A program made the position numbers and the translations under genes. Of a stretch of 46,520 bases of DNA, positions 14,073 through 17,227 are shown piece by piece. The notes below the pieces were generated by a model, which saw nothing but the letters and a program-made list of their open reading frames with translations, searched no databases and was not told the DNA's origin. The DNA is from Archangium sp. (GTDB taxonomy: Bacteria; Myxococcota; Myxococcia; Myxococcales; Myxococcaceae), in the NCBI GenBank assembly GCA_030695565.1, contig JAUYRZ010000017.1, positions 1-46,520 on the forward strand, given 5' to 3'. How positions within the stretch are numbered: position 1 is the stretch's first letter; every line of letters begins with the position of its first letter.

Positions 14073-15008
14073 TCAGAGGCGCAGCCGGGGCTCACGAATG
14101 GTGGCCTGCGGGAGCGCCGCTTTCACCGCCTGCACCCACTCGGGGTGATGGCGGTCGGCGACCAGCTCCAGCCGCTCCAGGTGCGCGAAGGAGTCGATCG
14201 TCTCGATGAGCGTGGTGTACCAGCCCGTCTCTGCTTCGGCCGCGATCTCCAGGCGCTTCAGGCCTCGCAGCAACGCGCTGACCGACAGATCGCTGAGCTG
14301 CTGCGGCCACAAGGCGCCGGTGATGGACAGTGACTGGAGCGAAGGCGCCACGTCACCTGCCAGCAGGGCCAGCGGCAGATCCAACCGGCGGAAAGGCAGC
14401 TCGAGCGCGAGCGCCTCGAGGCGGGGAAAGCGGGCCTCATCCAGCCCGCGCGCGGGGTTCTGCAGGTTGATGCTCAGCGTGCGCAGGCTGCGGCTGCTGG
14501 CGCCGTCGAACCTCAGGGCCCAGGAGCCGAGCACCAGGTGCTGCAGAGCGCTGAGCCGCGCGGTCACGGGCGCCACCTCGAGCACGCCGGGGAGCTGGCT
14601 TGCACTGCCGAACCGCAGGCTCGAGATCGTGCGGGGACCCCGTTGGGAGAGCACCTCGACGATGGGTTCGATGGTGAGGGGGTTGACCTCGAGCTGTCGC
14701 AGCAAGCGGCCGACCGGTCTGTCGATCACCGCCTCCAGCTCGCGCACTTCGGCGACCACCACCGACGAAAGGAAGCCGCGGGTGAAGCGGGGCAGCCAGG
14801 TGGTCAGGTGAAGCGGGTCACCCAACAGCTCCGCCGCGTGCGTGGCGAGGTGCTGGTGGGCGCCGTCTTCGTCACTTGCGAGCTGGAGCCGGATCAGCTC
14901 GCCGTGCGGATCGCCGCGCTCCATCAACGCATCGGAGAGCACCTGCAGGGCCCCATCGTCATCGGGCGATCCGAGCACCGCCTCCCACGCGGCCTCGAGC
15001 GGTTTCAT
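14073..15008 (-). CDS. TIGR02996-domain protein with leucine-rich-like region
   Basis: The 311-residue protein opens with a TIGR02996 segment (residues 3-45: AWEAVLGSPDDDGALQVLSD, then ERGDPHGELIRLQL). This short domain of unknown function is found in myxobacteria and planctomycetes, often before repeat domains. The remainder has irregular Leu-rich units such as LSALQHLVLGSW, SRSLRTLSINLQNPA, FPRLEALALELPF and FAHLERLELVADRHHP, suggesting an LRR-like solenoid for protein contacts. The ATG at 15008 overlaps the stop of the E1-like gene by four bases, so the two are translationally coupled. That coupling makes it the most likely partner or substrate adaptor of the E1-like protein; this is inference. 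Confidence 0.8.
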   Translation of the reverse strand: MKPLEAAWEAVLGSPDDDGALQVLSDALMERGDPHGELIRLQLASDEDGAHQHLATHAAELLGDPLHLTTWLPRFTRGFLSSVVVAEVRELEAVIDRPVGRLLRQLEVNPLTIEPIVEVLSQRGPRTISSLRFGSASQLPGVLEVAPVTARLSALQHLVLGSWALRFDGASSRSLRTLSINLQNPARGLDEARFPRLEALALELPFRRLDLPLALLAGDVAPSLQSLSITGALWPQQLSDLSVSALLRGLKRLEIAAEAETGWYTTLIETIDSFAHLERLELVADRHHPEWVQAVKAALPQATIREPRLRL

Positions 15009-15580
15009 GCGGTAGGCGTCACCGCCGCCAATCCCACCATCGAATCGCGCCGGGTGCCGCCCTTCACGAAGTCCTGCACCGTGCGGGCGATCGCTCCGCA
15101 CAGCAGGCCCAGCAGCGGCAGATGTTCCCCGCCTTCGCAGGTCGCCTGGCCCGCCACGTCTTCGGCGTCGGGGGTGAACCGTTCATCCCAACGCACCAGG
15201 CCGAAGGTTCCGTCTCCGCTGACCGCTGCGTGAAGCAGGGGCGTGGTGGTGGCCCGCGCGAAGTCGGAGAGCAGCTTGCGGCTGGCGGCGTTGTCGAAAC
15301 AGTCGACCAGCAGCTGCGCGCCTTTGCAGAGCGTGGCCACGTTGTCGGCCGTGACTCGCACTCCGAAAGACTCGGCCTTCACGCCGTAAAAGTTGAGCAG
15401 CTGCAGCTTGAGCGCCTCGGCTTTGTTCTTACCCACCGACTGCTTCACGTAGGCCTGCGCGAGCAGGTTCTTCGACTCCACCCGATCGAAGTCGACGAAG
15501 ACCAGCGTGGCCTCGAGGTTGCGGCAGAGCACCGCGGCCGTCGAACCAAGGGCTCCCACACCGCAGAAGACGATGCGCAT
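15005..15580 (-). CDS. ThiF/MoeB/HesA-family E1-like adenylyltransferase
   Basis: The 191-residue protein is a compact ThiF fold. The nucleotide-binding GxGxxG is CGVGALGS (6-13), the acidic strand end is VDFDRVESKN (29-38), and the conserved DCFDN (93-97) matches DCTDN of MoeB/ThiF. ATCEGGEHLPLLG (146-158) aligns with the segment that carries the catalytic Cys of ThiF/MoeB, so Cys148 is the candidate for a thioester or persulfide. The Zn-binding CxxC pairs of classical MoeB are not seen, and no rhodanese or MoaD/ThiS biosynthesis gene is nearby. These enzymes adenylate the C-terminus of ubiquitin-like proteins. It starts 18 bases after the stop of a 78-residue protein with a beta-grasp-like pattern and overlaps the TIGR02996 gene, giving a tight three-gene unit. 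Confidence 0.88.
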   Translation of the reverse strand: MRIVFCGVGALGSTAAVLCRNLEATLVFVDFDRVESKNLLAQAYVKQSVGKNKAEALKLQLLNFYGVKAESFGVRVTADNVATLCKGAQLLVDCFDNAASRKLLSDFARATTTPLLHAAVSGDGTFGLVRWDERFTPDAEDVAGQATCEGGEHLPLLGLLCGAIARTVQDFVKGGTRRDSMVGLAAVTPTA

Positions 15581-15598
15581 GGGAGCCCCTTACTGAAG

Positions 15599-15835
15599 TC
15601 ACGCTCCGAACGGCACCTTCGGGCGCAGGTAGATCCGGTGGCCACCCTGCAGGCGATCGACCACGAAAGCGTCGAAGGCGGCGTCGTTCAGGTGGGGCAG
15701 GGCGAGGCCCGGCACGTTGCCCGAACGCACCACCTCGACCGCGATGCGCCGGATGTCTGCGTCGGAGACCTGGTGGTCGAGCTCGAGCGCGTAGTCAGCC
15801 GAGAGCCCGTTGTAGGTGATGTTCAGGGTCGCCAT
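15599..15835 (-). CDS. 78-residue small protein, possibly ubiquitin-like (beta-grasp)
   Basis: No family is recognised with certainty. The likely order of elements is strand (ATLNITYN), strand (DYALELD), helix (SDADIRRIAVEVVRSG), then two C-terminal strands (FDAFVVDRL and HRIYLRP), ending KVPFGA. This beta-beta-alpha-beta layout and the small size fit a beta-grasp fold, and the placing directly before an E1-like gene is what is seen for ubiquitin-like and PRTRC-C-type proteins. The terminal Gly-Ala is not the classical Gly-Gly. A strong GGAGGT ribosome-binding site lies nine bases before the ATG, so it should be made in quantity. The gene is 81 bases downstream of the FHA-AAA gene. Other readings: an unrelated small adaptor. 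Confidence 0.75.
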   Translation of the reverse strand: MATLNITYNGLSADYALELDHQVSDADIRRIAVEVVRSGNVPGLALPHLNDAAFDAFVVDRLQGGHRIYLRPKVPFGA

Positions 15836-15916
15836 GGTGTGTGTACCTCCGTGAGGCGGTGACGACGGGCGCGACGCCCTGACCCTGACCCTGCGCCCGA
15901 AGGGAGCTCGGCTTCG

Positions 15917-17227
15917 TCAGCCCAGGCCGTCGGCGTTCTTGAGGTCCTTCAAGCGCAGGCCGTTCTTCTTGAGCAACCGGTAGAGCGACTGCATCGACAG
16001 CCCCGTGCGCTCTTCGGCCTGCTTGATGTCGTAGCCGCACTGCTTCATCACTTCGGCGAAGTAGTGCTTCTCGAAGTCGTTGAGCACCCGGTCTTTGGCC
16101 TCGTGATACGCCAACCGCACGGCCACCTCGAGCAGCGACGTGCGATCGGGCCTGCGATCCGTGGGCACCAGCAGCTCGAGCCACGAAGAATTTCCCGTCG
16201 CCTGCATCAACGCGCCCCGCTCGAGCACGTTGCGCAGCTCGCGCACGTTGCCCGGCCAGTCGTAGCCCTCGAGCAGCGACAACATCTGCGGCGAGAGATC
16301 GATCGGCGTCGAGAGGCCCTTCACCAGGTGTTTGGCCAGCAGCGGAATGTCGATCTTCCGCGTGCGCAGCGGGGGCAACCGCACCCGCGCCACGGCCAGG
16401 CGAAAGAACAGCTCCTGGCGGAACCGTTGTTGCTGCACCTCTTCGGCGAGGTTGCGCGAAGTGGCCGCGATGATGCGCGCGTCGAGCTTCTTGCCGCCCG
16501 GCAGCTCCTTGCTCTCGAGGATGCGCAGCAGGCGCGGCTGCACGGCCGCCGGCACCTCAGCGACCTCGTCGAAGAAGATCATCCCGCCCTGGGCGGTGGT
16601 GAACGCGCCGTCGGGGCCGAACAGCTCTCGATCGGCCGCGGCCTCCGAGAGCATCGCGCAGTCGACCACCCGGAACGGGCCGAAGCGCCGCACCGAGTAG
16701 GCGTGCACCGCGCGGGCCGCGAGCTCCTTGCCGGTGCCGGTCTCGCCTTCGATGAGCAGGGTGACGTCTTCCCGGGTCACCCGGCGCAGCTCCGCGAAGA
16801 TGATGCGCATCGCTTCGGAGACGCCGACCAGATCGCCGAACTGCTCGCCACCATCGAGCTCGACCTCGGTCTCTCTGCTTTTCTGCTTCACCGTCAGGCG
16901 CGTCTTGCCCAGGTCTATCTTGTCGCCCGGCTCGACGAAGGCCTGCAGCGTGAGCCGCCCCGCGAGGAAGCTGCCGTTGCGCGAGCCGAGATCCCGCAGC
17001 AACAACCCGCGGGAGGTGCGCTCGATCTCCAGGTGCTTGCGGCTGACCGTGGAGTCCGTGAGCACGAGGTCGTTACCCTCGTCGGAGCCGACGCGAATCA
17101 GCCCAGAGAGCGCCGAGATCGACTTGCCCTTGTCGGGGCCTCCGATGACTTCGACGGTCCACTCGCGGATGGGAACTCGGGTGATGCTGTCACCCGGGAT
17201 GGTCACCGATTCGGTGGTCTCAACCAT
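15917..17227 (-). CDS. FHA domain / AAA+ enhancer-binding-type protein with deleted GAFTGA loop
   Basis: The 436-residue protein has an FHA domain (about 23-115; IRVGSDEGNDLVL, SRKH 62-65, LGSRNGS 80-86) that should bind phosphothreonine peptides. A NtrC-type AAA+ domain follows: Walker A GETGTGKE 161-168, Walker B FFDEV 218-222, arginine region QELFFRLAVARVRLPPLR 271-288, WPGNVREL 324-331. A Fis-like helix-turn-helix ends it (about 385-425, AEERTGLSMQSLYRLLKKNG). The sigma-54 contact loop is damaged: ELFGPDGAFTTAQGG (201-215) runs straight into Walker B, lacking GA of GAFTGA and about ten following residues. It may therefore act without sigma-54, as repressor or activator of another kind. 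It starts 18 bases after the upstream lipoprotein gene's stop. Confidence 0.92.
   Translation of the reverse strand: MVETTESVTIPGDSITRVPIREWTVEVIGGPDKGKSISALSGLIRVGSDEGNDLVLTDSTVSRKHLEIERTSRGLLLRDLGSRNGSFLAGRLTLQAFVEPGDKIDLGKTRLTVKQKSRETEVELDGGEQFGDLVGVSEAMRIIFAELRRVTREDVTLLIEGETGTGKELAARAVHAYSVRRFGPFRVVDCAMLSEAAADRELFGPDGAFTTAQGGMIFFDEVAEVPAAVQPRLLRILESKELPGGKKLDARIIAATSRNLAEEVQQQRFRQELFFRLAVARVRLPPLRTRKIDIPLLAKHLVKGLSTPIDLSPQMLSLLEGYDWPGNVRELRNVLERGALMQATGNSSWLELLVPTDRRPDRTSLLEVAVRLAYHEAKDRVLNDFEKHYFAEVMKQCGYDIKQAEERTGLSMQSLYRLLKKNGLRLKDLKNADGLG

Follow-up and report, generated by a model that had tools for sequence, protein, structure and literature searches.

The window analysed here, a stretch of 46,520 nucleotides of Archangium sp. 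(contig JAUYRZ010000017.1, assembly GCA_030695565.1), carries on its minus strand two adjoining genes of what is probably a dedicated ubiquitin-like modification system. The first (15599..15835, ATG start) encodes UBL, a 78-residue ubiquitin-like modifier assigned to the beta-grasp class by conservation, an AlphaFold model and structure matching, and is preceded by a Shine-Dalgarno sequence, GGAGGT, that can be read directly at 15845..15850, 9 nt before the ATG. Downstream of it, after a gap of 18 nt (15581-15598), lies the gene of a 191-residue E1-like adenylyltransferase of the ThiF fold (15005..15580, minus strand, ATG start), hereafter E1, recognized by its match to Pfam ThiF (PF00899, E=2.6e-21, residues 2-122), its invariant columns and its relatives in the PDB. 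Its motifs comprise GVGALG at residues 7-12, DCFDN at 93-97 and Cys148 within TCEGGxHLP. The stop codon of E1 (TGA, 15005-15007) and the start codon of the following gene (ATG, 15006-15008) share a 4-nt ATGA overlap. The gene layout, ribosome-binding site, gap, motifs and overlap described in a first-pass annotation of this stretch proved exact in all their coordinates.

The UBL-E1 pair and its distribution

UBL has no family match in Pfam or NCBIfam, where the MoaD/ThiS type in particular was looked for. Structure prediction bears out the beta-grasp fold that had been proposed for it: the AlphaFold model displays the order EEHEE with a pLDDT of 90.8, and its structural neighbours are beta-grasp domains, among them the PI3K ABD (Z 5.7) and ubiquitin (4auq_F; Z 5.3, root-mean-square deviation 2.5, 60 aligned residues, VIA), with Z scores that are modest, as with any small domain. 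Foldseek searches with this model and with that of c3, a partner protein described below, returned nothing at E < 0.001. At the level of distribution, 21 of the 60 relatives searched gave a UBL match, of which the weak and outlying one in G049 (E 8.5e-4) was dropped, since no E1 was found there. UBL is further present in 76 of 195 Myxococcota genomes, and 69 loci were found in a bacterial genome collection. Its carriers include Myxococcus xanthus, Corallococcus, Archangium, Labilithrix, Polyangiaceae, Nannocystaceae and Kofleriaceae, as well as two Virgisporangium isolates belonging to the Actinomycetota. E1 lies directly downstream of UBL in 19 of the 20 loci first examined and in 66 of 67 loci of the genome collection. 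The pair is thus conserved far beyond chance, and this adjacency, together with the predicted fold, supports the earlier proposal that both proteins constitute a functional unit. The record BNCN01000002.1 (L103), titled Comamonas sp. KCTC 72670, contains a locus of Myxococcus type within a genome of 9 Mb and is probably a mislabelled Myxococcus.

E1 is strongly conserved. An alignment of 29 diverse orthologs has 38 invariant columns, among them GxGAxGS, D30, K53, DxxDN and Cys148 (TCxxGxHLP), and the nucleotide-binding core (G7, G9, G12, D30, K53, D93, D96 and N97) is kept. The closest PDB relatives are ThiF, MoeB and Uba4. Profile residues 2-165 align with residues 33-205 of Escherichia coli MoeB, and by the offset of this alignment Cys148 would fall near MoeB Cys187. 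Three further ThiF-family proteins encoded in the same genome score better than E1 and are presumably housekeeping enzymes.

The five-gene operon and its split form

In Polyangia, Kofleriaceae, Nannocystaceae and Virgisporangium, UBL and E1 close a five-gene operon, vWA-c3-JAB-UBL-E1, at its 3' end. The vWA protein (~590 residues) combines a long helical N-terminal region with a C-terminal vWA domain bearing DKSGSM, and c3 is a ~320-residue protein. The JAB protein carries the metal motif HxHx(7)Sx(2)D, with H49, H51, P52, S59 and D62 invariant, and the three members tested reached 29.4, 29.0 and 25.1 bits against Pfam Prok-JAB (PF14464, cut-off 25). Neither PHROGs nor PADLOC returned anything for UBL, c3, JAB or vWA. 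In Myxococcaceae the operon is split, and in the window's genome the remaining trio is found intact on the minus strand of another contig (G000:C131, locus L158), with vWA at 8307-6511, c3 at 6461-5478 and JAB at 5481-5137. The first-pass annotation had described a minimal system with no JAB; this holds for the immediate neighbourhood, but the genome does contain JAB and c3, and in other families both sit beside the pair.

Several observations tie both halves together. Of the 195 Myxococcota genomes, the 76 that encode UBL are precisely those that encode c3, and JAB is present in 74 of them; the two in which it was not found are G002, which is 80% complete and has only a fragment of c3, and G077. 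Genus g16 contains three species with all the parts and four with none, even though a different contig carries each half. A single contig bears both JAB and UBL in 52 of 74 genomes, and in all 52 of them JAB is upstream on the same strand, at distances from 47 bp to 21 kb, as expected of a broken operon; the arrangement looks like that of one ancestral operon pulled apart. A functional link between the two loci is further indicated by genome G019, where the E1 beside UBL (L031, about 9670-9820) is an in-frame internal-deletion remnant (MRVVIFDRAESKNLQDCVKHG...), and an intact E1 adjoins JAB on another contig (L164, 5713-6285). Genome G077 presents a divergent four-gene form, vWA-c3-UBL-E1 (L168), devoid of JAB and with a UBL of ~38% identity. 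Both Virgisporangium isolates (L128 and L130) harbour the complete operon, suggesting lateral transfer.

The AlphaFold model of c3 (pLDDT 87) displays an N-terminal pair of OB-like barrels (Z 5.6 with the tandem OB of Mpa) and a C-terminal alpha-beta4-Cys-alpha domain, in which the sole invariant cysteine, present in 31 of 31 sequences, is located just after strand 4. The C-terminal domain resembles the RWD fold of Ctf19/Mcm21, a relative of E2 enzymes, with Z 4.6; scores of similar size were obtained with cystatin-like DsbC dimerisation domains. This E2/RWD-like topology, together with the invariant cysteine, tentatively marks c3 as a candidate E2. In turn, the vWA protein shares with TROVE/Ro60, which are vWA-bearing RNA-binding proteins, the layout of a helical N-terminus followed by a C-terminal vWA domain with DxSxS. 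Pfam TROVE did not match the vWA protein and single-sequence hhalign was negative; the vWA profile aligned to TROVE by hhalign with P 72.5 and E 3e-5, over the C-terminal part of TROVE and mostly within the vWA domain, a match that is suggestive only. A search for Y RNA or other Rfam RNAs near the operon yielded one tRNA in one locus and nothing else. It is a speculative idea, to which only a slim chance can be given, that a Ro60-like vWA protein and an E2-like enzyme with OB folds, possibly nucleic-acid-binding, form a machine in social bacteria run by its own ubiquitin-like cascade, whose ubiquitin-type tag would intervene in the quality control of RNA or ribonucleoproteins.

The same set of partners bears on the question of whether E1 adenylates UBL to convert it into a thiocarboxylate sulfur carrier of the ThiS/MoaD/CysO kind, with JAB merely exposing the C-terminus. 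The kinship of E1 with ThiF, MoeB and Uba4 fits such a role, and operons that combine JAB, ThiF and Ub-like genes with sulfur metabolism have been described (Iyer 2006, rows 4a-4e, PMC1779556). Nevertheless, the operon has no recurrent neighbour connected with sulfur, be it a rhodanese, a cysteine synthase or another gene; the constant partners are instead the vWA protein and c3 with its invariant cysteine. Moreover, UBL ends in PFG and not in GG, and the three better-scoring ThiF-family proteins are available for the housekeeping routes. Sulfur transfer consequently appears unlikely, while keeping a small share of plausibility.

Proposed C-terminal processing and mechanism

The C-terminal end of UBL offers an additional clue. 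The motif RPKVPFG, which reaches Gly77, is invariant among 45 aligned UBLs, and the most divergent member, that of G077, reads RPKTPFG. After PFG follows a variable tail of 0-16 residues, whose first position can be Ala, Gly, Ser, Cys, Asp, Val, Arg or none, while Gly77 is constant. The UBL of the window has a single residue, Ala78, beyond this glycine, and many members end likewise in PFGA. The Gly-Ala end that had been considered an unusual tail is explained as a one-residue extension past the conserved Gly77. Tail-less UBLs, ending at the conserved glycine, occur in G195 (a Labilithrix metagenome-assembled genome) and G077, both without a JAB match, and also in G196, where the JAB gene is N-terminally truncated. 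The association of tail with JAB presence gives a rough Fisher p = 8e-4, a value that takes JAB in most tailed loci from the phyletic profile and ignores relatedness. Because tail-less UBLs end at Gly77 in genomes with a missing or truncated JAB, the most natural reading of Ala78 is that of a propeptide one residue long, which JAB would remove in the manner of ubiquitin precursor processing. In the G196 locus (L105) E1 is displaced ~5.9 kb downstream of the tail-less UBL and truncated JAB, possibly a decaying or rearranged system.

A different use of the tail can be envisaged, in which UBL is conjugated untrimmed through Ala78, like the type II CBASS CD-NTases that end in Ala, and JAB acts only as a deconjugase. 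The last residue of these CD-NTases is typically Ala or Gly and becomes conjugated to lysine (PMC11153139), and the PFGA end of many UBLs would suit this scheme. The residue after PFG, on the contrary, varies or is absent, and tails extend up to 16 residues while Gly77 stays constant, so that conjugation through Ala78 seems improbable.

Taken together, UBL and E1 are probably two parts of a dedicated ubiquitin-like modification system, of which the vWA protein, the OB/E2-like c3 and JAB encoded on contig C131 would constitute the rest. The Ubl, E1 and JAB components are well supported in their identity, and so is their joint inheritance; the set of genes, the modelled beta-grasp fold, the conservation of catalytic motifs and the tail-JAB pattern emerged directly from the computational comparisons. 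From them we infer a cascade with adenylation, cysteine transfer, an E2 function for c3 and isopeptide conjugation as its steps, and with a target and biological role of its own. JAB would cut the UBL precursor after Gly77, in this case taking off only Ala78, and E1 would then adenylate Gly77 with ATP, probably handing UBL to Cys148. From there UBL would move to the invariant cysteine of c3 and onward to its target, which might be the vWA protein or whatever the vWA/OB modules recruit; JAB could also take UBL off again.

Several points weigh against this interpretation. E1 is short and misses the N-terminal segment, and the arginine of the MoeB-type QRQ motif, at a position that contacts ATP in MoeB, is replaced: E1s have LAQ, LSQ or AAQ (Ala in the window), compared with HRQ in Uba4. 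As a result of this replacement and of the missing N-terminal extension, the ATP contacts of E1 would have to differ and its chemistry may be modified. As regards c3, no match was obtained in Pfam, Prok-E2 included, by sequence in the PDB, or in a profile comparison with PRTRC-B, and its Z score with RWD is below 5, comparable to that of the cystatin-like DsbC dimerisation domains. The loci share descent and raw counts overstate their independence. The tail pattern, for which JAB presence was mostly scored by phyletic profile and not locus by locus, also has exceptions: G197 lacks JAB and has a UBL with the tail GA, and L086 and L124 have JAB yet a tail-less UBL.

Neighbouring genes and known systems

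The genes flanking the pair had been assigned roles in the first-pass annotation, a target adaptor downstream and a regulator upstream. Downstream of E1, the gene at 14073..15008 (minus strand) encodes a TIGR02996/STM4015-like repeat protein with a sub-threshold TIGR02996 match (26.2 bits against a cut-off of 29.05) and a weak STM4015 match; its adjacency to E1 is limited to about five or six related loci, a distribution that does not sustain a role of this leucine-rich repeat (LRR)-like protein as adaptor. Upstream of UBL, the gene at 15917..17227 (minus strand) encodes a protein with FHA, sigma-54 activator-like AAA and Fis-type HTH regions, its FHA and Sigma54_activat domains both being above the Pfam threshold. 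An ortholog exists in 30 of the 60 relatives, 11 of which are family members without UBL, and in all nine UBL-bearing relatives whose copy is only 61-66% identical, that copy is on another contig or megabases away from UBL. A regulatory role is thus not supported: on its phyletic distribution the protein was rejected as part of the system, and it is encoded by an independent gene of the Myxococcaceae. Its AAA domain has GAFTTA instead of GAFTGA and misses the segment usually found after it, so that the protein may no longer activate sigma-54, or may do so differently. Neither neighbour is needed to explain the system. That both genes lie beside the pair here and in a few relatives is what would favour a UBL-E1 pair standing alone as a minimal system with this regulator and adaptor; given the phyletic independence of the former, the sporadic presence of the latter and the strict co-occurrence of UBL with the unlinked c3 and JAB, such a scenario is highly improbable. 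The remaining genes that recur nearby, among them endonuclease V, ClpA/RF2 and a DUF1684-like gene (identified by eye from sequence), reflect regional synteny only.

Among described systems, the nearest are the sporadic bacterial operons of rows 6a-6e in Iyer, Burroughs and Aravind 2006 (PMC1779556), which similarly join a beta-grasp Ubl with a C-terminal Gly, an E1-like, a JAB and an E2-like protein. A conserved Arg and Trp were described for the JAB of row 6d, and the JAB studied here shows DSRxRWxxIW. In contrast, no vWA gene is listed in those rows, while the present system has a vWA protein, a c3 with OB-like domains and an E1 unfused to JAB or E2; Myxococcus is absent from the text of that work. 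The PRTRC plasmid system also has separate genes for a Ub-like C, an E2-like B, a JAB A and a ThiF-type E1, but it is plasmid-borne and includes ParB/E/F genes, whereas the system described here is chromosomal and lacks them. Membership in PRTRC was rejected after profile comparison of the four shared parts, in which only E1 was clear (P 95) and JAB was limited to the metal motif (P 26); hhalign found no match between Ub-like C and UBL or between E2-like B and c3 (probabilities 0.1 and 0.2). Bil, Bub and type II CBASS Cap2/Cap3 likewise comprise a Ubl or Ubl-like substrate, E1, E2-like and JAB proteins for reversible conjugation (PMC11153139, PMC11354881, PMC13373217). Their architectures differ from the one described here, where a single-domain E1 of 191 residues is accompanied by vWA and OB modules: BilA carries a pair of Ubl domains, the E1 of Bil (BilD) consists of two domains, and in Cap2 the E2 and E1 are fused. 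A BubCD chain is available in the PDB. The FtsH-ternary MoxR-vWA systems (Kaur et al. 2020, PMC7159879) share the combination of vWA with Ubl, E1 and JAB and their occurrence in socially complex bacteria, but bear MoxR, FtsH, an EAD1-Ubl-E2 fusion and a RING E3, none of which recurs at the loci described here. In a literature search of partial coverage no description of this system was found; an earlier one may exist, and no priority is claimed.

The division of the system into unlinked loci in many genomes, with parts that bear no database name, means that local gene context misses it. If the interpretation is right, many myxobacteria, including Myxococcus xanthus, would possess a chromosomal ubiquitin-like system that stands alone, is kept mostly by vertical descent and brings its own processing protease, in contrast to the defence-associated and fused systems studied to date. 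It would also provide a genetically tractable model with a simple test of propeptide processing, as some UBLs would be born mature and others would need JAB.

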